Origin: Geminicoccaceae bacterium
GTDB lineage: Bacteria > Pseudomonadota > Alphaproteobacteria > Geminicoccales > Geminicoccaceae
DNA length: 64,000 nt
Direction: 5' to 3'
Assembly (NCBI GenBank): GCA_025999455.1
Contig: AP024683.1
Span: 3,598,451-3,662,450 of the forward strand
Position numbers and translations under genes: made by a program. How positions within the stretch are numbered: the stretch's first letter is position 1; each line of letters opens with the position of its first letter. The notes beneath the pieces are model-generated. The model saw only the letters and a list, made by a program, of their open reading frames with translations, was not told the origin of the DNA and did not search any database. Of this stretch, positions 52,426 to 64,000 are shown piece after piece.

Positions 52426-54489
52426 GTGAGCAGCGAACCGCCGCATCTGCGCGGGCTCGATCCGGCCCAACGCGAGGCCGCGACCTGGGCGATCGACGGC
52501 CGTCCGCCGGCGCCCGCGCCACCCCTTCTGATCCTGGCCGGGGCCGGCACGGGCAAGACCCGCACGCTCGCACACAGGGTGGCCCACCTCCTGGTCCAGG
52601 GTGCGGACCCCGGGCGCATGCTACTCCTGACCTTCACGCGCCGGGCGGCGGAGGAGCTGATCCGCCGAGTCGAACGGCTCTGCTTCGAGGTGCTCGGTGC
52701 GGAGGCCGGTTCGGCGCGCGAGTCCCTCTGGGCCGGCACGTTCCACGCCGTGGCCGCGCGGCTCCTGCGCCGCTTCGCCGAACGGCTCGGCCTGCCGCCC
52801 GGCTTCACGATCCTCGACCGGAGCGACGCGGCCGATCTCCTCGATCTCGTGCGCGAGGAGGAAGGGCTCGCCCGGATCGACCGCCGCTTCCCCAAGAAGG
52901 ACACCTGCCTCGCGATCGCGAGCCTCGTCCTCGCGAGCGGCCGCAGCCTCGAGGAGGTGCTGCGCCGTCAGTTCCCCTGGTGCGCCGAATGGCAGGACGA
53001 GCTCAAAGCCCTGTTCCGCGCCTACGCCCGGGCCAAGGCCGCCCAGGGCGTGCTCGACTACGACGACCTCCTGCTCGCCCTCGAGCGGGCGCTCGCCGAG
53101 CCCGCGCTCGCCGCCGAGATCGGCGGGCTCTTCGACCACGTGCTCGTCGACGAGTATCAGGACACCAATCCCTTGCAGGGGCGGATCCTCGCCCGGCTCA
53201 AGCCCGACGGGCGCGGGGTCACCGTGGTCGGCGACGACGCCCAGGCGATCTACGGCTTCCGCGCCGCCACGGTCCGCAACATCCTGGACTTCCCGAAGGC
53301 CTTCACGACGCCGGTCGAGATCTTGAAGCTCGAGCGGAACTACCGCTCCACGCAGCCGATCCTGGAGGCGGCCAACGCCGTGATCGGCCTCGCCCGCGAG
53401 GGTTTTCCCAAAAGGCTCTGGTCGGCGCGGGCCTCGAGCTCGAAGCCGCGGCTCGTCGCGCTCGAGGACGACCAGGCCCAGGTCGACCACGTCGTCCGCT
53501 CGGTGCTCGAGGCACGCGAGCAGGGTCTGCGCCTCGCCGACCAGGCGGTGCTGTTCCGCACCGCGCACCATTCGGCCGCCCTCGAGGTCGAGCTCGTCCG
53601 GCGCGGGATCCCGTTCGTGAAATATGGCGGCCTCAAGTTCCTGGAGGCGGCGCACGTCAAGGACGTCTTGGCCATCCTCAAGCTCGCCGAGAACCCGGCC
53701 GACCGGGTGGCGGGGATGCGCGTCCTCCAGCTCCTGCCCGGCATCGGCCCGGGCACCGCGCGTCGGCTCCTGGAGGCCGTCGCCGAAGCGGGGCGCGGGC
53801 TCGCGACCCTCGCCGGTTTGCGCCCGCCGACCGCGGCACGGCTCCTCTGGGGCGAGCTCGCCGCACTCCTGATCGAGCTCGAGGGGGCGACGATCTGGGC
53901 CGGGCAGATCGAGCGGGTGCGCCGCTTCTACGACCCGCTCCTGCCCGACCTCCACGACGACCCCGCCCCACGCCTCGCCGATCTCGACCAGCTCGCGGCC
54001 GTGGCGGCGCGCTTTTCCGACCGCCGGCGTTTCTTGACCGAGCTCGCCCTCGACCCGCCTTCGGCCGCGTCCGACGAGGCCGGCGTGCCGCTGCGCGACG
54101 AGGACTGCCTCACGCTGTCGACGATCCATTCGGCCAAGGGCCTCGAGTGGAAGGCGGTCTACGTGTTGAACTGCGTCGACGGCTGCATCCCCTCGGACAT
54201 GGCGACCGGCATGGTCGAGGAGGTCGAGGAGGAGCGCCGGGTGCTCTACGTGGCGATGACGCGCGCGAAGGACCGGCTCGAGCTCTTGGTGCCCGAGCGG
54301 TTCTACACCTTCGGCCAGCCCAAGTTCGGCGACCGCCACGTCCGCGCCGCCCGCTCGCGCTTCTTGCCGGATCGGATCCTCGACCGGTTCGAGCGGGTCT
54401 CGGCGCACCGGGCGCGGGGTAGCGACCCCGGCGCGGCGGACGGACCTCGCTTCGACCTCCGCGCCGCGCTCGAAGCGGTGTGGGATTAG
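52426..54489 (+). CDS. UvrD/Rep-type ATP-dependent DNA helicase
   Basis: A superfamily 1A 3'-5' helicase of 687 residues. Motif Q and Walker A read LDPAQREAATW and AGAGTGKT at 38-45. TFTRRAAEEL follows, then motif II LVDEYQDTN, motif III GDDAQAIYGFR, motif IV LERNYRS, motif V LTLSTIHSAKGLEWKAVY and motif VI VLYVAMTRAKDRL. The C-terminal Tudor-like tail of UvrD is short. It could be UvrD, Rep or PcrA-like; sequence reading does not separate these. The GTG at 52426 overlaps no other gene. Its TAG shares two bases with the stop of the convergent ATPase gene. Confidence 0.9.
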   Translation: MSSEPPHLRGLDPAQREAATWAIDGRPPAPAPPLLILAGAGTGKTRTLAHRVAHLLVQGADPGRMLLLTFTRRAAEELIRRVERLCFEVLGAEAGSARESLWAGTFHAVAARLLRRFAERLGLPPGFTILDRSDAADLLDLVREEEGLARIDRRFPKKDTCLAIASLVLASGRSLEEVLRRQFPWCAEWQDELKALFRAYARAKAAQGVLDYDDLLLALERALAEPALAAEIGGLFDHVLVDEYQDTNPLQGRILARLKPDGRGVTVVGDDAQAIYGFRAATVRNILDFPKAFTTPVEILKLERNYRSTQPILEAANAVIGLAREGFPKRLWSARASSSKPRLVALEDDQAQVDHVVRSVLEAREQGLRLADQAVLFRTAHHSAALEVELVRRGIPFVKYGGLKFLEAAHVKDVLAILKLAENPADRVAGMRVLQLLPGIGPGTARRLLEAVAEAGRGLATLAGLRPPTAARLLWGELAALLIELEGATIWAGQIERVRRFYDPLLPDLHDDPAPRLADLDQLAAVAARFSDRRRFLTELALDPPSAASDEAGVPLRDEDCLTLSTIHSAKGLEWKAVYVLNCVDGCIPSDMATGMVEEVEEERRVLYVAMTRAKDRLELLVPERFYTFGQPKFGDRHVRAARSRFLPDRILDRFERVSAHRARGSDPGAADGPRFDLRAALEAVWD

Positions 54490-56786
54490 CCGGGGGTCGG
54501 TTGGAGCGTGTACATCCGCCTCACGACGCCGATCGCCAGCTTTATCATCGCCTTGAGCTCCTGCGGATCAACGTTCAACACGTCACCACCAGCCTCTGCG
54601 TGATGGAATCGCGACGCGTACTCGTTGATCGCGGAAAGGTCTTTGAGATCTTCCTCGCGAACCAACGCCTTTTGACGAAGACGCCCGATGACGTTACCTA
54701 GGGGTACGTTTGACGCGCGGATCTCGGGAAACCGCGCCTTTACGCGTTGTTCGATAAACATCCGGAGATCCGCCGCTACGATACTCGGATCACCCTCGTC
54801 TCTCATCAGGTAGGTCCACAGTCTGGCCTCGCATGCGGTCGTTCTGTCGTCGACCAACGTATCAAAATCATTCTTTTTCAGGCTCGATCCCACTTCGAGG
54901 CCAAACTTGATCTCAACCTCTTGTCGTGCCGCTCGCATCCGCTGCCTTTTCAGATCCAGCAAAAACCCAATGTCGTGAGAACAAACCACCACATTGGCGG
55001 CTTTTTCCACGAGTTCGCCAATTTCGTTCAGAGTAGTCCGGCGTCGCGAGCTGTCCTGGCTCGTGAACGGGTCGTCGAGCACCACGATCCGCTCGGCGAG
55101 ATCCGGTTTCTGCTCGAGCTGCGCGACGAAGAAGGCGAAGGCCAGCGCGCTCCGGTCCCCGGCGCTGAGGGTGTTCTTGAAGTGAGGCTCACTGAGCGGC
55201 GTCTTCGCGGTTCCGAGAGGAACTGTCTGCTCGCGGATCTTGATCGACCATCCCAGCGCGGGCTTTCCGCCGGGATTCTCCTGTTTCATCTCGGCGATTG
55301 CAAATCCAGCTCCGAACCTCTGTAAAAGCGCGTTCACCCGTTCTTCGACGTGAGCGAGTTTGCGAAATTCACTTTCCAATTCGACGTTCTTATCTTTTTT
55401 CTGTTTCGTGATTTCTTCCTTCTTGTCCCGCAAAGCCTCGAGCGCAGCACACTTCTCGGCGAGCGGCGGTTCATGCCTCCTCTTTATCAACTGAAGTCGG
55501 TTCAGCTCCCGCTCAGCCTGGTCGAGCTTCTCCGTCGATGCTTCTTGTTTGCAACGCTCGATCCGTTCGTTCAGTTTTGCGATCGCCTCGTTGTAGTTCT
55601 CGAGAGCGCGGAGCGTGTCTTTCAAGCGTTCCGTCGCGCGTCGTACTTCATCCGTGGCGACGCGTTCGAGGGGCACCTTCGATTTTTGATCGCGTGCGTC
55701 GACCGCGGTCTTTCGAAACGTCTTCCATACAGAACGCCAGTCCGTGGGCGGGGCCACCTCGTCCCCGATCGGACCGACGTACTTTTTCCAGAACGCCCAT
55801 CGCTCTTGGTTCGTCGCGACGATCTCGGCGATCTGCGCTTCGCGCGCCTCACCGAAAGCGTCTGTCACTTCGCGCGCGAGCTTTTCGATCTCCCCCTTCA
55901 ACGCCCGATATTCTTCGCTGAACACCGCCCGATAGGCCTGGATCAGATCTTTCACGGGCTCGAGCGACTGCCCGCAGAAGGGACATTGGGCGTCCGGCTC
56001 TTCTCGCACGAAGCCGAGACCCTGCTCCAGCCAACGCCGACCGTGGCCACCGAGGCCACAGCGGTGCAGGTGGTCGTCGAGCTTGTTCTCGGCGTCGTAG
56101 GCTAACTGCTCGACCGTTCGCTGCAGTATGTCCTTGAGGTGGTCCGGCACCGTCGGGAGCGGAAGCTCTTGCAGTTTTGGATTCGTTTTTATCGTTTCGG
56201 CATCGCGATGCGCCTCGACCTGTGCTACGGTGACCTCGATTTTTTTATCGATCTCAGGGTCTTTCCGGAGGTTCAAGAAATCGGTCAGTTTTAATCGGTC
56301 GCCGAGTATTTTTGTTAGTTCCTCTTCGCGCCGCGTGATCTCGCGTTGTGTCTCGCGACTGTCGGCGTCGAGCTTTTTGATCTCCTCCTGCAGTCGCACC
56401 GCTTCCTCGCCGAGTACGACTTGCAGAAGATTTCGCTTTTGATCGACCTCGACCGCCTCGGTGTAGAGGTTCTCGCGGACGAATTGCTCGTCGTAGACGT
56501 CGATCCGCGGCCGCTCGCCCTCCCATGCGTCGCCGTTCCAGACACACGACTTGCCGCCGGCGAGCGTGATGTCGACACGAGACGGCCCGTCTCGACCGAC
56601 CGTCTTGCGACCCTTCAGAATGTCCGCGTCGTTCCGCGCGAGCGAGCGGAGGATCGCACAGAGTGTCGTCTTGCCCGTGCCGTTGGGGCCGTAGATCAGC
56701 GTCAACTTCTGGAAACGTACGGGTTCATCCGGCGCCAATTGATGGAACGTTCCGATGTTCTCGATCCTGGCGATGGCTTCGATCAT
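54486..56786 (-). CDS. RloC/PrrC-like AAA_13 ATPase with CPFC hook, probable defence protein
   Basis: This 766-residue protein resembles AAA_13 ATPases such as the anticodon nucleases PrrC and RloC. Walker A GPNGTGKTT lies at 33-41 and a coiled coil at about 130-260. The hook DAQCPFCGQ has Cys268 and Cys271, as in zinc-hook RloC. A second coiled coil runs to about 480. The signature is LSAGDRSAL, the Walker B VLDDPFTSQD has Asp571/572, and the switch is His604. The C-terminal domain holds LRMFIE (Arg675, Glu679) and FHHAEAG (His728/729), an R-x3-E plus H pattern like the ACNase triad, though the spacing is longer than in PrrC. The gene is clearly less GC-rich than its neighbours, suggesting recent acquisition. 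Nuclease function is unproven. Confidence 0.75.
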   Translation of the reverse strand: MIEAIARIENIGTFHQLAPDEPVRFQKLTLIYGPNGTGKTTLCAILRSLARNDADILKGRKTVGRDGPSRVDITLAGGKSCVWNGDAWEGERPRIDVYDEQFVRENLYTEAVEVDQKRNLLQVVLGEEAVRLQEEIKKLDADSRETQREITRREEELTKILGDRLKLTDFLNLRKDPEIDKKIEVTVAQVEAHRDAETIKTNPKLQELPLPTVPDHLKDILQRTVEQLAYDAENKLDDHLHRCGLGGHGRRWLEQGLGFVREEPDAQCPFCGQSLEPVKDLIQAYRAVFSEEYRALKGEIEKLAREVTDAFGEAREAQIAEIVATNQERWAFWKKYVGPIGDEVAPPTDWRSVWKTFRKTAVDARDQKSKVPLERVATDEVRRATERLKDTLRALENYNEAIAKLNERIERCKQEASTEKLDQAERELNRLQLIKRRHEPPLAEKCAALEALRDKKEEITKQKKDKNVELESEFRKLAHVEERVNALLQRFGAGFAIAEMKQENPGGKPALGWSIKIREQTVPLGTAKTPLSEPHFKNTLSAGDRSALAFAFFVAQLEQKPDLAERIVVLDDPFTSQDSSRRRTTLNEIGELVEKAANVVVCSHDIGFLLDLKRQRMRAARQEVEIKFGLEVGSSLKKNDFDTLVDDRTTACEARLWTYLMRDEGDPSIVAADLRMFIEQRVKARFPEIRASNVPLGNVIGRLRQKALVREEDLKDLSAINEYASRFHHAEAGGDVLNVDPQELKAMIKLAIGVVRRMYTLQPTPG

Positions 56787-57112
56787 GGCCGTCGCGATCC
56801 GGGAGGCGCTTCGAGGCCATGGTATTCAACGACCTCTGGTCGACAAGACCGGCCGCTCCGTTCAGCTCCGGAGTCGCCAGCGCGGCGCTTGGCGGCCCTT
56901 TTCCGAAGTCGCGACGGTCCGCGAGGCGGAGAGGAAATGCTCCGGACGTCGCCGCCGCGCCGAGGGGCAAGTCGGCGGACGGAACAGCTGCGCGGAAGTC
57001 GAGCTCGCGAACGGAACCGGCTGTGACGCGAATCACTGGCTCGCAAGCTCGAATTCATGTAAGCTTTGTCGAAAGTCGGTAAAAAAACCTACGGCCAGCG
57101 GGAGGGAACGTC
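56787..57112. other. Intergenic region between the RloC-like gene and the oxidase gene
   Basis: A 326-bp divergent gap. I see no gene, only short chance frames. A less GC-rich patch at 57040-57095 (AATTCATGTAAGCTTTG, then seven A) probably holds the oxidase promoter, but no clean -35/-10 pair stands out. GGGAGGGAA just before 57113 is a strong ribosome site for the oxidase. Confidence 0.45.
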
Positions 57113-60100
57113 ATGGATCGGTTCGCGGCTGCAGTGTCGCGCGCCTTTGCTCTGCTCGCTGCGCTTTCGATCGCGCAAGGCGCCCGAGCGCAGCCGATCG
57201 TTCCCTTCGCGACCGTGCCCCCCGAGGCCCCGCCTGCTCGGGTGATCGTCGCCAAGGTCGCGGCGATCGAGCAACCGATCATCTACAACCGCTTCGGGTC
57301 TTTCAACCCGGCCGGCATGATCTACGCCCTCGAGCGTGACCTCGTCACGGTCGAGGAAGACGGTCAACCGATCACGCGTCTGCGTGCCGACAAGCGGCCC
57401 CGTCCCCTGGTCTTGCGCGGCAACGTCGGCGACGAGCTCGTCGTCGAATTCACGAATCGCCTCCCGCCACGGCAGCCGAACTGGAACCCGGCGACCGAAC
57501 GTCTTTCTCGTGCCGCGCCGACGGGCGGCGTCTGCCCGGGCGCCGATTGGTCGTGCACCCGCACCGCGTCGATCGTCGTCCACGGTATCACCACGCTCGG
57601 CGCGAACGATCGTGAACGCGGCATCGTTCCGATCGCTCCAGGCGAGACGCAGACCTACCGTTTCAGATTGGAGCGCGAAGGGGCCTATCTCTTCACGAGC
57701 CTCGGCGCGCCCGCAGGGGGCGAAGGCGACGGTGGGTCCCTGACCCACGGTCTCTTCGGCGTGATCGTGGTCGAGCCGCCGGGCTCTCGCTGGTATCGGA
57801 GTCAGGTCGACGCCCGTCGGCTGGCGGCGGCCCGAGCTGTGGCGCGAGGGGGCGCTTTCCTCGACTACGGCGCCACGGACCCGGATGCGCGGCTCGACAT
57901 GCTCGCGCCGATCCCGGACGAGCAGGGTCGCTTCGAGCTCCTCTCGGGTGACCTGTCGGCGGTGGTCGACGTCTGCCCGGCTTGGAACGCGGGTGAACCC
58001 GGGGCGAGCTGCGCGCGCGAGGGGCTGTCCATGTTCCGCGAATTCGTCGTCGTGTTCCACGACGAGCTCAAGACGTTCTATCCCGACCGATTGCGTGAGC
58101 TGCGCGAGCTGCCCGAGAATGATCCGGATGCGATCCTCGCCGACGTGTTGAAGGGTGTGCGGGACGGGTTCGCCATCAATTACGGCGCCTCCGGCATGGG
58201 CTCGGCCCTCCTCGCGAACCGCAAGGGATTCGGGCCTGCCAAAGACTGTGTCGAATGCGCGTACGAGGAGTTCTTCCTGCAGTCTTGGGTCAACGGCGAT
58301 CCGGCGTTGTTACCGGTCTACGCCGACGATCCGTCGAACGTGTTCCACTCCTATCTCGGCGATCCCGTCGTCTTCCGGAACTTGCACGCCGGTCCCAAGG
58401 AAACCCACGTCTTCCACCTGCACGCCCATCAATGGCTGGCGCAGCGAAACGACGATTCGGGATTGGGCGGCCCGACGCTCGGCGTCGCGTCCTCGCCGGG
58501 GACCTATCTCGATTCGCAAACCATCGCCCCGCTCCAGTCGTTCAGTTATCCGATCTATTACGGCGGTAGCGGAAATCTGAACCTGACACCGGGCGATTCG
58601 ATCTTCCACTGCCATCTCTACCCCCATTTCGCGCAAGGCATGTGGGGGCTCTGGCGCGTGCACGACGTGTTCGAGGACGGTCGACGGCGTCTGCCGGACG
58701 GCGAGTTCGGACCCGGCGAGCCCTTGCCGCCGCCAGATGTGGTCCCGACGACGGGCACACCGATCCCAGCGGTCGTGCCGCTGCCCGGTCGTCCCCTGCC
58801 GCCCGCGCCGACCGCCGACATGACCGGCTTTCCCTTCTACATCGAGGGAAGGGCGGGTCACCGCGCGCCGCAACCGCCGCGCGACATCGTTAGGGACGCC
58901 GGCCTGCCGCGCCACGTCGTGACCGGCGGCACCCGCACGATGGCCGGGATCGAGGCGGCCGACCAGGCGGCACTCGGGCCGCAAGGCGTCGACGAGATCC
59001 TCCGTCTGGCCCTCGTCACGGGCGACATGTCGGTCGAACTCGAGACGGCGACTTTGGAGATCCTACCGGCCGACGGGACCGAGCGTGAGCGGCGGGCGAT
59101 GGCGTTCCACGCCGGACGCCCGGAGAGCGTGACGATGGCCGACGGGACGGTCGGACGGCGGGTCCGGTTCGCCGAGATCGAGCCCGGTCTCGCCGCCGAT
59201 CCGAACGTGCTGCCTCCGGTCAAGGGACGGGTCGGTTGGACGTCGCGCACACCGGCTGGCCGAGACCACCTCCCATCGGGCAAACCCGCCGTCTTCTGGG
59301 TCAACGGCAACAGCCCCGACGCGCCCGACGACGAATTACCCGGTGCGCCGGGCGCGCCGTTCGCCGACCCCTGCGTCGGTGTCCCGCGCGACCAATGGGT
59401 TCGCTACCGCGTGGCGGCGATCCAAGCCGACCTCGTCGTCAACGATGCCGGCTGGCACGACCCGCAGGCACGTTTGAACGTGCTCGCGAGCGATGCCGAC
59501 CGACTCCAGGGTCGCCGGATCGGGCGAGGTACGGCCGACGACGTGAAACCGTTCGTCTTCCGCGCCCATTCCGGCGATTGCATCCTGTTCGAGCACGAAA
59601 ATCGTCTCCCGAAAGAACTCGCCCTCGACGATTTCCAAGTGCGAACGCCGACCGACACGGTGGGCCAGCACATCCATCTCGTGAAGTTCGACGTGCTCGC
59701 GTCCGACGGATCGGCCAACGGGTTCAACTACGAAGACGGAACTTTCGCCCGGGATGCGATCCTGGAGCGGGTTCACGCCGCCACCGCACCGGGCGGCCGC
59801 GTGGTGGGCGGCAGCCTGCGCGAACCGGCGCCGGGCGAGTATCAGACTACGATCCAGCGCTGGTACGCGGACCCTCTGCTCTGGGGACCACCGGAAGCCG
59901 GACCGGGGAGCCGGCCGGTCGACAAGACCTTGCAATCGGTATTCACCCACGACCATTTCGGGCCGTCTTCGATCCAACAACACGGATTCTACGCCGCGCT
60001 CGTGATCGAGCCCCGCGACTCGATCTGGTGGGACCGAGTGACGGCCTCGGACGTGACCAATCTCCCGGGGCCGGACGGGATCAAGGAGGGGCGCGGTGTC

Positions 60101-62863
60101 GGCACGCAAATGCGGATCACGCCGCCGGTCGACGGCGGCGAGCCCTATGCCGAATTCGCGCTCGTGATCGCCGACTTCGCGCTCCTCTACGAACCGTGCG
60201 GTGCCGACGGACCCTGCCGGGATCCGGTCGGTCCGGAGGCCAACGGCCTCGAACTGACGGCCCACCTCGTCGCGACCCGGCCGCCCGCGCTCCTCTCCGA
60301 TTCCCACCGGGCGGCCCTCGCCGCGAGGCGGCAAGCCCTGGCCCGCGAGAAGCCGATCGCCCCGCCACGCCTGCCCGAGGCCATCTCGACGGACCATCAC
60401 GACCCCTACCTCCTGAACTATCGCAACGAGCCTCTGGCACTGCGGATCGGCGAGCGCACGGGTTCGGGCACGTGGCGGCAGAAGGCGGGTCTCGAGGGCG
60501 ACCTCGCCGCCGTCTTCTCGAGTGTCGTGCACGGCCGCGACCCGGCAACCGAACCTTTCCTCGCCCAAGAAGGTGAAAAGCTGCGGATACGGCTGATCCA
60601 GGGCGCTCAAGAGGTCCAGCACGTGTTCGCCGTGCAAGGCCTGTCCTGGCCGCGTGAGCTCAACGATCCCAACAGTGTTCGTGTAGGTGCGCAAGAAATC
60701 GGGATCTCCGAGCATTTCGAGCTCGATCTCCTCGTCCCGGGTGTCCCCGCCGGTGCCGCCGACGTCGACCTGCTCTACCAGGTGACCACCGTGGACGGGT
60801 TGTGGAACGGTGCCTGGGGCCTCCTGCGCGTCCACCGCGGCGACCCCGCCGCCGTGCCCGCCGAACCGTTGATGGCCGGGGTCGTCCCGGGGATCGCGCC
60901 CGCGGCGGCTCCGGCAGCCACCCCTGCCGCGGTGAGGGCGCAGCCGCCGACGTCGACGCCGAGCCTCGCTTATCGTTTGTTCGGCACGCCGGCCGGCGTT
61001 CCGGCTCCGCTCGCCACAGGACGACGCCCGCACGGCCCGCCGGTCCGGCTCGGATGGCCGGAGCGTTGGCGGGCCCCGACCGTCGAGCGCCCGGCCGCGG
61101 CCCCAGCGGCGGACATCGGGCGCGCCCGGGTCGTCGTGGATCGGTTACCACCGGGCACGCGGAGCGCCTGCGCACCCGACGACCCACGCCGTCGCTACGT
61201 CCTCGAGGCCTGGCGCGTCGATACCTGGCTAGGCCAGCGACTCGGTAGCGAGCAGGAGGGCCTGCGTATCGGCGCCCAGGGCCGCTTGCGCTCACGGGCG
61301 GCGCTCGCCTGGGTGATGCTCGCGCACGAGCGCCCGACGATGGCGACCGGCGCGACCGGCGAGGCGACGCTCGAACCGAGCGCGCTCGAGCGTGATCCCG
61401 AGCTCTGGGTGGCGCGGCGAGCCGCGGTACGGCAGGCGCACCGGGAGCTCGGCGAGGTTCCGCCGCTCGTGCTGCGCGCGAAAGCGGGCGAGTGCCTCGA
61501 AGTGATCCTGCACAATTGTCTCGCCGGTGCGCTCACCGCCGACGGAAAAGAGCTGGCACGCTGTCGATCGGTCGCCCCCGAGGCGCGGTTGACTCCGGTC
61601 GACCAGCTCGGTCGCGGCGACGCGAACGATGTGGACGTCGATCTGTTGCCGAAGATCGTGGGACTCAACCTCCAAGACCTCTCACCGTCCTACAGTGTCG
61701 GCTTGCGCCCGGACATGCTCGGGCAGGACTTCCTCGCCGATCCGCAACCGATCGGCGGCAACATACCGCTCGGCCCCGACGGCCAGTCCGACCCGACACG
61801 GCTCGGCGGGCTGCGACCGGGCGAAGCGCGCGCGCTCGCTTGGTATGCCGGGATCCTCACGACGCGCTCCTGCGCAGAGATTGGGGCACCCGAGGAGATC
61901 TGTCGCAACGAAGGTGTGACCACCTGGCCCGAGCGACGCGCGCTGCCGCTCGGCATCGTCAATCTCGTCGCAACGGGCGACCCGCTCGAGCACGGCCAAC
62001 ACCACATCGTGGGCGCTCTGGTCGTCGAGACCGCCGAGAGTCGCTGGTTGCTGCCGGTCGATCCCGGCAGCGCGCGACCGGATCGGCCCCGAGATTGGAT
62101 CCGGGTCGACGAGCCGCCGGCCATCGGCGTCGCCGACGCCGGTCGACCGACTCTCGACGTGCTGCGCAACGGTGGGCTCGAGGCGAGGATCCTGGTCACC
62201 AACGCCAAGCTCGGGCACGAGGAATGGCGGCGCGAGCACGTCCTGATCTATGCCGACGGGCTCGGGCGGCATTACCGTCTGCCGGGCAGCTCGACCTTCC
62301 TCCCGGTGCCCTCCTGTCGGGTCTGCGACGACAGCTACGACCTCGGCAGCCAGGCGGTCTCGGGGCGAAGCGCGCCCTTCTTCGCCCGCCTCGGTCTGCA
62401 ACCCTGGAACGAGACCGGGGGGTCGACCGGTCCGGCGGGGCCGATCGACTACAATCGGCGGGTGTTCCCGACCACCTTCTTCGCCGCCCCCGACCCGGCC
62501 ACGCGCACCTTGCGGGCCGTCGAGGGCGAGACCGTGAGTTTGCGCGTGGCGCAGCCCTACGGACGGGCACGCCAGCACGCGTTCACCCTGCTCGGCCACG
62601 ACTACCCCGATCTCCTGCCCCATTTCGGCTCGCCATCGGCGGTGCTGATGGCGCCCGGCCGAGCGTTCACGGCGACGCTCTGCCGAACTTGGGACCCACG
62701 CGAGCGGTTCGACGGAACCTCGCCCTGGTACGGTTACGAGGATCGTCCGTGCCTCCGTGGCGGCGCGCGGGCCGGTCGTTGGCTCTGGCGCGACGGCCCG
62801 GCGATGTTCTTCGCCGGCGGCATGTGGGGTGTGTTCGACGTCGCGCCGGCGTCATCCCCCTGA
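57113..62863 (+). CDS. Giant secreted multicopper oxidase, MnxG-like
   Basis: A 1916-residue exported protein (signal peptide to about ARAQ25) made of several cupredoxin-like domains. Copper-ligand motifs are plain: His432-x2-His435-x-His437-x-His439 in VFHLHAHQW, and His499-Cys500-His501-x3-His505-x4-Met510, the type-1/trinuclear bridge. A second set is GQHIHLVKF (His853, His855), then FTHDHFGPSS and QQHGF (His946, His948, His957), with VQHVFAVQG (His1170). Size and motif order recall MnxG, the Mn(II) oxidase of Pseudomonas and Bacillus. The last domain (about 1500-1916) has an AGGMWGVFDV end but no HCH, so it has probably lost copper. Mn oxidation is inference; a ferroxidase or laccase-like role is possible. 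Confidence 0.78.
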   Translation: MDRFAAAVSRAFALLAALSIAQGARAQPIVPFATVPPEAPPARVIVAKVAAIEQPIIYNRFGSFNPAGMIYALERDLVTVEEDGQPITRLRADKRPRPLVLRGNVGDELVVEFTNRLPPRQPNWNPATERLSRAAPTGGVCPGADWSCTRTASIVVHGITTLGANDRERGIVPIAPGETQTYRFRLEREGAYLFTSLGAPAGGEGDGGSLTHGLFGVIVVEPPGSRWYRSQVDARRLAAARAVARGGAFLDYGATDPDARLDMLAPIPDEQGRFELLSGDLSAVVDVCPAWNAGEPGASCAREGLSMFREFVVVFHDELKTFYPDRLRELRELPENDPDAILADVLKGVRDGFAINYGASGMGSALLANRKGFGPAKDCVECAYEEFFLQSWVNGDPALLPVYADDPSNVFHSYLGDPVVFRNLHAGPKETHVFHLHAHQWLAQRNDDSGLGGPTLGVASSPGTYLDSQTIAPLQSFSYPIYYGGSGNLNLTPGDSIFHCHLYPHFAQGMWGLWRVHDVFEDGRRRLPDGEFGPGEPLPPPDVVPTTGTPIPAVVPLPGRPLPPAPTADMTGFPFYIEGRAGHRAPQPPRDIVRDAGLPRHVVTGGTRTMAGIEAADQAALGPQGVDEILRLALVTGDMSVELETATLEILPADGTERERRAMAFHAGRPESVTMADGTVGRRVRFAEIEPGLAADPNVLPPVKGRVGWTSRTPAGRDHLPSGKPAVFWVNGNSPDAPDDELPGAPGAPFADPCVGVPRDQWVRYRVAAIQADLVVNDAGWHDPQARLNVLASDADRLQGRRIGRGTADDVKPFVFRAHSGDCILFEHENRLPKELALDDFQVRTPTDTVGQHIHLVKFDVLASDGSANGFNYEDGTFARDAILERVHAATAPGGRVVGGSLREPAPGEYQTTIQRWYADPLLWGPPEAGPGSRPVDKTLQSVFTHDHFGPSSIQQHGFYAALVIEPRDSIWWDRVTASDVTNLPGPDGIKEGRGVGTQMRITPPVDGGEPYAEFALVIADFALLYEPCGADGPCRDPVGPEANGLELTAHLVATRPPALLSDSHRAALAARRQALAREKPIAPPRLPEAISTDHHDPYLLNYRNEPLALRIGERTGSGTWRQKAGLEGDLAAVFSSVVHGRDPATEPFLAQEGEKLRIRLIQGAQEVQHVFAVQGLSWPRELNDPNSVRVGAQEIGISEHFELDLLVPGVPAGAADVDLLYQVTTVDGLWNGAWGLLRVHRGDPAAVPAEPLMAGVVPGIAPAAAPAATPAAVRAQPPTSTPSLAYRLFGTPAGVPAPLATGRRPHGPPVRLGWPERWRAPTVERPAAAPAADIGRARVVVDRLPPGTRSACAPDDPRRRYVLEAWRVDTWLGQRLGSEQEGLRIGAQGRLRSRAALAWVMLAHERPTMATGATGEATLEPSALERDPELWVARRAAVRQAHRELGEVPPLVLRAKAGECLEVILHNCLAGALTADGKELARCRSVAPEARLTPVDQLGRGDANDVDVDLLPKIVGLNLQDLSPSYSVGLRPDMLGQDFLADPQPIGGNIPLGPDGQSDPTRLGGLRPGEARALAWYAGILTTRSCAEIGAPEEICRNEGVTTWPERRALPLGIVNLVATGDPLEHGQHHIVGALVVETAESRWLLPVDPGSARPDRPRDWIRVDEPPAIGVADAGRPTLDVLRNGGLEARILVTNAKLGHEEWRREHVLIYADGLGRHYRLPGSSTFLPVPSCRVCDDSYDLGSQAVSGRSAPFFARLGLQPWNETGGSTGPAGPIDYNRRVFPTTFFAAPDPATRTLRAVEGETVSLRVAQPYGRARQHAFTLLGHDYPDLLPHFGSPSAVLMAPGRAFTATLCRTWDPRERFDGTSPWYGYEDRPCLRGGARAGRWLWRDGPAMFFAGGMWGVFDVAPASSP

Positions 62864-62888
62864 GCAGCGGCCGGTCGGGGTCCGCGCC

Positions 62889-64000
62889 ATGCCGGCTCTC
62901 CTCCTGGGCATCCTTGCGGGGCTGGTCGGACCCCTCACCGCCCTCGCGCTCGAGGTCGGGCTCGCCATTCGGGACGAGGCTGGAAGGCCGATCTCCGTGA
63001 TCCACCCGGGAAGCACGGTGCACCTCGAGATCGAGGTGCGCGATCCGTCGAGCGGCTGGCCGCCCGCCCGACCGCCCCGCGCCTGGTTGGTCCCGGCCGG
63101 CCCTGCGGGAGAGCCTTGCGCGCTCCGGGCGGCTCGTCTCGTCCAGCGTGGCGCCGATCCGCTCCGCGAGCGGCCGCTCGACGGTTATCGACTGCTGCTC
63201 TTCGGACCGGACGGAGAGCTCGCTTTCGTCGACCCTCGCCTCCGTCTCGCTTCGGCCCACCTCCAATCGGTCCTGCGGCTCCCGGCCACTCCGACACTCG
63301 CCCTTCTCGACACGCAGCGCGCCCTTCTCTGGGCGGCCCTGCCGGACGAAGGTCTGCTACGGATCGATGTCGCAGGAGCGGGACGGTTCGAACGGCTGGA
63401 GACCGGGGCCGCCGTTCGAGCGGCAGCCCTGCTCGGCGACGGAAGGCTCGTGACGGCCCTCGCCGACCGTCGGCTCGTCGTCCGCGACGCGCGGGGTAGG
63501 TCGCTCGCAGCGCTGGAGCTCCCGGCACCCGCCACCGTCCTCGTGGCGGATCCGCTCGGCGATCGCCTCTGGTCGGGCGGACCGGACGGACTCTCGATCG
63601 TCGAATGGAAACCCGACGGGTCACCCGGCCGACGGGCTCTTTCCGACATCCGGGTGGACGGGCTCGTGCTCTTGCCGCGCAGCCGCCTCGTCCTCGCGCT
63701 GCAGGAGGGGACGGTGGCGAGTTTCGATGCCGACGAAGAGACGCTCCTCGCCCGCACGCCCTTCACGTCCGGGGCGGATTTACTCCGCGCCACCCCCGAC
63801 GAGCGGTTCGTCCTGGCCCCGAACCGGGCCACGGGTGTGGTGAGTCTGCTCGACGGGGCGAGCGGGAGGCTGCTCGCCGCCCTCGCTCTCGAAGAGGGGG
63901 TCGAGGAAGTGGGACTGGCCGCGAACACGGCCTATTTCGCTTCGTCGCCGTCCGCGCGGATCGCGCTCTTGCCATTGGCCGGGGTCGAGCCGGGCCGCTT
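62889..64000 (+). CDS. Secreted propeller-like protein (3' end beyond window)
   Basis: An open frame from ATG 62889 to the window edge (370 codons, no stop), 25 bp after the oxidase. The start is a signal peptide (MPALLLGILAGLVGPLTALA). Residues about 20-110 look like an Ig/adhesin-type beta domain (IHPGSTVHLEIEVRDP). From about 135 come irregular repeats of WSGGPDGLSIVEW and VSLLDGASGRLLAALAL, the look of a YVTN/WD-type beta-propeller. It is on the oxidase strand and probably in its operon, so it may bind or present the oxidase or its product (inference). No family is firmly recognised. Confidence 0.7.
   Translation, partial: MPALLLGILAGLVGPLTALALEVGLAIRDEAGRPISVIHPGSTVHLEIEVRDPSSGWPPARPPRAWLVPAGPAGEPCALRAARLVQRGADPLRERPLDGYRLLLFGPDGELAFVDPRLRLASAHLQSVLRLPATPTLALLDTQRALLWAALPDEGLLRIDVAGAGRFERLETGAAVRAAALLGDGRLVTALADRRLVVRDARGRSLAALELPAPATVLVADPLGDRLWSGGPDGLSIVEWKPDGSPGRRALSDIRVDGLVLLPRSRLVLALQEGTVASFDADEETLLARTPFTSGADLLRATPDERFVLAPNRATGVVSLLDGASGRLLAALALEEGVEEVGLAANTAYFASSPSARIALLPLAGVEPGR

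Follow-up and report, generated by a model that had tools for sequence, protein, structure and literature searches.

Three-domain Mn oxidases of the MoxA/CotA type are about 500 aa in length, and their copper motifs run A, B, C, D along the chain. The giant multicopper oxidase MnxG of Bacillus works with two partner proteins, MnxE and MnxF. A further system is the putative mnxG operon of Pseudomonas putida GB-1 (PMC11409713, Table 4; PMC8218464, Fig. 2 legend), where a giant oxidase with motifs A–D is followed by a gene annotated as '40-Residue YVTN family beta-propeller repeat protein' (PMC11409713). According to the same table and legend, the row continues with two SCO1/SenC genes, a gene for an 'Amino acid/amide ABC transporter substrate-binding protein, cytochrome c domain' and one for SurA (PMC11409713; PMC8218464). 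The DNA examined here is a 64,000 nt stretch (the window) of the genome of a Geminicoccaceae bacterium (assembly GCA_025999455.1, contig AP024683.1, positions 3,598,451 to 3,662,450), which carries a gene for a 1916 aa multicopper oxidase near its right end. The locus is almost certainly an mnxG-type oxidase operon. It is an intact operon of this type in an alphaproteobacterium and ordinary in kind, a new member of a known system.

The oxidase open reading frame (ORF) begins with ATG, spans 1916 codons and is the longest among the 42 ORFs listed for positions 54000–64000. A gap of 25 bp separates it from the ATG of the propeller gene at 62889, and this second ORF runs out of the window. As the host genome is a single contig (3,762,466 bp), the genes beyond the right edge could be read, and they are given in window-equivalent coordinates. 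All three of the following junctions (propeller to SCO1/SenC, SCO1/SenC to cytochrome c protein, and cytochrome c protein to subtilase) are 4 bp overlaps, and by this layout the five genes form a predicted operon. Its features are:

57113..62863 (+), giant multicopper oxidase of the MnxG family, 1916 aa (ORF, profile and PDB matches, alignment, tree)
57113..57193 (+), probable signal peptide ending near ARA-QP (by eye from the sequence)
58406..58423 (+), copper motif C, H432xxH435xH437, with type-1 (T1), type-2 (T2) and type-3 (T3) ligands by homology (alignments)
58607..58642 (+), copper motif D, H499 C500 H501 ... H505 ... M510 (alignments, comparison with PDB entry 9bxa)
59669..59677 (+), copper motif A, H853xH855, trinuclear site (alignments)
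59948..59956 (+), copper motif B, H946xH948, trinuclear site (alignments)
60875..62854 (+), C-terminal region, probably cupredoxin-like, in which the set of copper ligands is incomplete (alignment, weak model, Foldseek)
62889..64667 (+), window part 62889..64000, predicted beta-propeller partner, 592 aa, with its first 370 codons inside the window (fold of a relative)
64664-65242, window-equivalent, SCO1/SenC, 192 aa (PF02630)
65239-66642, window-equivalent, cytochrome c protein, 467 aa (haem motif)
66639-68402, window-equivalent (L025:9590-11353), S8 subtilase, 587 aa (PF00082)

The oxidase is matched by the NCBIfam model for MnxG (NF041487) with an E value of 6e-171 and a score of 570.5 bits. 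In the genome search six separate matches covered parts of the profile from position 3 to 1893, with none in 1364-1710. Only Cu-oxidase_2 exceeded its cut-off in a Pfam scan, and the only strong match in the PDB was MnxG itself (9bxa, E 4e-98), with the copper motifs aligned. That entry is titled 'Structure of Mnx H340A complex from Bacillus sp. PL-12'; residue H505 of the oxidase aligns with position 340 of the Bacillus protein, which is Ala in 9bxa, so that this Ala is the H340A mutation named in the title. Both comparisons extend along most of the chain, and Bacillus sp. PL-12 MnxG shares the motif order C, D, A, B, although it is shorter (1227 against 1916 aa). In length and motif order the oxidase does not match the MoxA/CotA three-domain type. 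The original prediction, made from the window alone, of an MnxG-like giant oxidase was therefore borne out, and its view that the oxidase and the propeller are secreted agrees with the N-termini of both proteins, which by eye resemble Sec signal peptides.

The four copper motifs make up one full set, with C and D in one domain and A and B in the next. The ten His ligands and Cys500 are present in all 38 rows of the alignment, and Met510 in 37 of them. These counts cover rows of at least 1150 aa, with shorter pieces (L012 among them) and L020 excluded; rows were gathered by likeness to the oxidase or to the MnxG model, and the peptide patterns that found L001-L022 contained no ligands. Loss of trinuclear-site ligands on full alignment had been named as a possible refutation, and no such loss was seen. 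The compared stretches of the other domains have scattered His residues (e.g., H157 and H1170 in the oxidase) and no full ligand set (36 rows). Since motifs C/D and A/B together provide a single set, one type-1 copper and one trinuclear cluster would be expected, as in MnxG. The alternative of two copper sites per chain was rejected, because C/D supplies the ligands that A/B lacks and vice versa, while in those 36 rows no full set is seen in the compared stretches of the other domains; the two complete-looking motif sets initially reported are thus reduced to one.

A copper-free terminal domain had also been proposed, and the C-terminal region (residues 1255-1914, about 660 residues) does lack a full set of copper ligands. 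Foldseek matches it best to MnxG 9bxa (E 7e-8, template modelling score 0.32 by query), which counts as support and no more, given a weak model (predicted local distance difference test score, pLDDT, 58.6). A short stretch within the region also matches 9bxa by sequence (E 3e-4).

The neighbour of the oxidase at 62889 is, judging from the predicted structure of a relative, a beta-propeller. This relative, from a second genome of the same genus (L001), is 58% identical and gives a strand-rich model (pLDDT 82.7), which Foldseek places closest to 1l0q, 'Tandem YVTN beta-propeller and PKD domains' (E 3.8e-14); NirN (rank 4) and NirF (rank 28) are further propellers in the list. YVTN repeats (TIGR02276) were found in all three other propellers scanned, and Pfam propeller families in three of four, the Sphingobium protein being the one without a match. 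The secreted, propeller-like gene 25 bp downstream was correctly recognised at the outset; the accompanying statement that such a partner is foreign to known mnx operons was not upheld, since it is the second gene of the P. putida GB-1 operon as tabulated.

The genes to the right of the window, which were to be inspected as a check, continue the row. The third gene is a single-copy SCO1/SenC (PF02630, E 4e-8) with a CSSLC motif. The fourth has one CARCH haem motif, and its protein aligns with those at the equivalent position of other loci at 21–66% identity; four of four homologues scanned score above cut-off for Peripla_BP_6, and Cytochrom_C is matched at E 1e-6 to 0.008, in one case below cut-off, a pairing of domains also given for the P. 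putida GB-1 gene. The fifth encodes a subtilase (PF00082, E 3e-30) with intact triad motifs (D160, H222, GTS406-408), an S8 peptidase at the position where the P. putida GB-1 row ends in SurA. The order oxidase, beta-propeller, SCO1/SenC, cytochrome c protein is the same as in P. putida GB-1.

The same row of oxidase, propeller, SCO and cytochrome c is carried by Sphingobium xenophagum pSH1, Paracoccus aminovorans plasmid IV, Shinella sp. PSBB067 and Roseomonas gilardii pRo-1. In all four plasmid cassettes (as for the oxidase of the Roseivivax plasmid) the oxidase is annotated as 'hypothetical protein', as is the propeller in the four and also the cytochrome in Shinella. In the Roseomonas cassette a 211 aa ORF separates the oxidase from the propeller, and this oxidase belongs to the other large clade. 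In the Paracoccus and Shinella plasmids a divergent trypsin-like peptidase upstream replaces the downstream subtilase, and Shinella has an S8 peptidase there as well.

Altogether 40 oxidase loci were examined: L001-L022, the present locus (L025) and L043 from the same genus and family, L074-L081, and eight plasmid loci fetched from 30 plasmid records with a match. A class search around Candidatus Thiodiazotropha covered 369 genomes, nine of them matching, from which five further stretches were taken besides L008 (G451 and two weak matches were excluded). Not all loci are independent, as L014, L074 and L076 come from one genome, L022 and L075 from another, and the present locus and L001 from one genus. 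The helper-gene profiles were built iteratively from three to five seeds, so single weak calls, such as the Roseivivax cytochrome, may be wrong. A relative of the propeller was found at 27 of the 40 loci. Three of these have it somewhere other than directly downstream (upstream in L019, divergent in L080, and 2.4 kb from an oxidase fragment in L076), and it is cut or split in L003 and L021. All four genes occur together at 19 loci, with order and strand varying at some; among them are L074, L075, L078 and L079, whose oxidases score 2333, 1986+313, 2183 and 1156+450+330 bits against the MnxG model. Five of the 13 loci without a propeller (L004, L007, L012, L014, L020) end at a contig edge within or shortly after the oxidase; the other eight belong to Nitrospira (four), myxobacteria (two), Rubrobacter and Priestia. 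Both myxobacterial genomes encode a propeller of nearly full length at another site (E 1e-175 and 2e-205). In the four Nitrospira genomes, a genome-wide search gave no propeller in two, weak matches only in one, and a fragment at a contig edge in one. Relatives of the oxidase also occur in Methylomonas and an acidobacterium.

Two of these loci have layouts of their own. In Sorangium cellulosum So0157-2 (L013 9692-19073), two tandem oxidase ORFs are followed by a single propeller-SCO-cytochrome set. In the Priestia megaterium plasmid (L087 4351-8678), the 1228 aa oxidase related to Bacillus MnxG has no propeller beside it, and is preceded by two ORFs of about 100 aa, an arrangement like that of Bacillus mnxE-mnxF-mnxG.

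A phylogeny with MnxG, McoA and MoxA had been suggested as a check. The tree (936 core columns, 38 rows, quick IQ-TREE run with Shimodaira–Hasegawa-like approximate likelihood ratio support only) does not include Pseudomonas MnxG, McoA or MoxA, and the proteins scoring highest against the MnxG model (maximum 2414 bits) served as stand-ins. The oxidase groups with the copy from the same genus (support 100) and with that of the Sphingobium plasmid (support 90). These belong to a set of 17 rows (98) that also includes the Paracoccus, Roseivivax, Shinella and Methylobacterium plasmid copies, the same-family copy L043, Methylomonas, Methylothermaceae, Thiodiazotropha and Nitrospira. The top scorers (L077, 2414 bits; L074, 2333 bits; L078, 2183 bits; L075; L079) form a clade with a second Ideonella copy within the other 19 rows, and the Roseomonas plasmid copy lies elsewhere among those. 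Loci L074 and L014 come from one methanotroph metagenome-assembled genome, 'Mn-Methylococcaceae-1', presumably obtained from a Mn-oxidising enrichment. The oxidase lies both below the equivalog cut-off of the MnxG model and outside the clade of high scorers, and because it stands apart from the latter, its orthology to MnxG is not supported by these comparisons.

Examination of 145 related genomes gave matches to the MnxG model in four: the present one, one of the same genus, one of the same family, and one with only a weak 105-codon stretch. In G003, of the same genus, the uvrD left flank and the FAD-linked oxidase right flank are 609 bp apart between their matched ends (L102 2582-3189), the right flank being seen only as 539 bp at a contig end. 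The corresponding interval in the window's genome is 14.0 kb (54416-68422) and holds a divergent AAA ATPase gene and the operon. The site is therefore empty in G003 for both, through loss or gain. In G002, a genome of the same genus with no oxidase match, a contig starts with sequence that matches the final ~200 bp of the subtilase gene (68202 onwards), so the missing oxidase match may reflect an assembly break, and the operon's absence from other genomes of this genus is less certain than the count of 4/145 suggests.

Taken as a whole, an mnxG-type operon with a giant multicopper oxidase, probably secreted, the usual accessory genes and a proposed role in Mn(II) oxidation is the probable explanation of the locus. 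Several observations weigh against it. The 570.5 bit score is far below the curated equivalog cut-off of NF041487 (3100 bits), a value reached by none of the genomes in the searched sets of 145, 7 and 369, which thus offered no positive control (14 named control genomes gave no match at all). Forcing the oxidase and its sister together with the six rows of the high-scorer clade costs 327 log units and is rejected (approximately unbiased test, p 7e-58; 36 rows, two long outgroup rows excluded), a value to be read as 'clearly worse' only, since the group was named after the tree had been seen and the search was short. The propeller of this locus has no significant Pfam or NCBIfam match, and the fourth-gene protein has weak Pfam cytochrome matches and no Peripla_BP match in Pfam. 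Compared with the P. putida GB-1 operon as published in that table and legend, the predicted operon has one SCO gene instead of two and a protease gene in place of SurA. Near the Nitrospira oxidases L002, L005, L006 and L010 (4/4 with flanks) none of the helper families (propeller, SCO, cytochrome) was found, and we know of no member of the oxidase's clade that has been shown to oxidise Mn. The natural substrate is inferred to be Mn(II) because of the P. putida operon and Bacillus MnxG; the separate clade weakens this, leaving the chances about even. A giant oxidase of the same family that acts on something else, e.g., Fe(II), Cu(I), phenolics or sulfur compounds, with accessory genes serving general copper loading and electron transfer, is a serious competitor that we rate a little lower. 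It would accommodate both the position outside the clade of highest-scoring MnxG-like proteins and the hosts within the clade, which include Paracoccus, Methylobacterium and Nitrospira, organisms without a reputation for Mn oxidation as far as we know, but the layout, ligands and four-gene set equal those of the mnxG operon of a Mn oxidiser.

The original prediction went further and saw in the propeller the mark of a distinct mineral-oxidising or metal-detoxifying system. The divergence of this propeller from the profile families fits such a view, which is nevertheless refuted as stated by the published operon, where the propeller is the second gene; with a propeller relative at 27/40 loci and YVTN repeats in each of the three others scanned, a distinct system is very improbable. 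About as improbable is a decayed or non-functional copy. The patchy presence (4/145 genomes, one empty site within the genus) could be read in that way, but all twelve ligands are kept, the five genes are open and joined by 4 bp overlaps, and the oxidase core is 85% identical over 807 columns to the other copy from the genus.

If the preferred reading of an mnxG-type, Mn(II)-oxidising operon is correct, its proteins would be exported, and the SCO protein, from what is generally known of SCO proteins, would help to load copper into the oxidase. As in other multicopper oxidases, electrons would be drawn singly from Mn(II) at the type-1 side, with four-electron reduction of O2 to water at the trinuclear site, and Mn(III/IV) oxide would precipitate outside the cell. 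The propeller may partner the oxidase in a structural or metal-handling role, and the cytochrome in an electron or redox role.

These comparisons settle the propeller as a known partner and show the mnxG-type cassette to be wider than its annotation. If the clade of this oxidase oxidises Mn(II), many more bacteria become candidate Mn oxidisers; if it does not, the clade offers a natural control for identifying what enables MnxG to oxidise Mn.

A protease gene beside the oxidase in Alphaproteobacteria is a lead, and mildly new. Peptidases are close to the oxidase at five of eight alphaproteobacterial loci (the present one, L001, L083, L085, L088; not L082, L084 or L089), a count that leaves aside L020 and L043, which are cut short. 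In the present locus and L001 the S8 peptidase is the fifth gene (69% identical), Shinella carries one peptidase of each kind, S8 and trypsin-like, and Roseivivax and Paracoccus have a trypsin-like gene divergent from the oxidase. Methylobacterium has a divergent gene with a HEIGHGLNLPH stretch (by eye, no Pfam match), perhaps an HExxHxxxxxH protein. No peptidase match was found in Sphingobium and Roseomonas, where two neighbours each were scanned, and S8 and trypsin profiles (from 2 and 3 seeds) gave no match among the remaining loci examined. The S8 proteins of the present locus and Shinella do not align (best E 0.59). The association perhaps represents two independent events, only two because the present locus and L001 are related, as are the three plasmids. 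A narrow literature query returned no paper bringing together protease, subtilisin, multicopper oxidase and Mn oxidation. Speculatively, the alphaproteobacterial oxidase may have a secreted protease of its own, taken up repeatedly from unrelated families (S8 here; trypsin-like on plasmids of Rhodobacterales and Shinella), that would mature, release or recycle the ~200-kDa oxidase or free it from a mineral crust, the cassette being a mobile, widely unannotated metal-oxidation trait; we regard this as unlikely.

The 766 aa ATPase gene adjoining the operon (54486-56786, - strand, divergent) lies inside the same variable stretch and matches Pfam AAA_13 (E 4e-48); it is possibly a defence gene. A gyrB-recF-dnaN-dnaA-like gene row, recognised by eye (L026 5963-12192), is located ~15-20 kb to the right of the operon end, and suggests that the operon is near the chromosomal origin.

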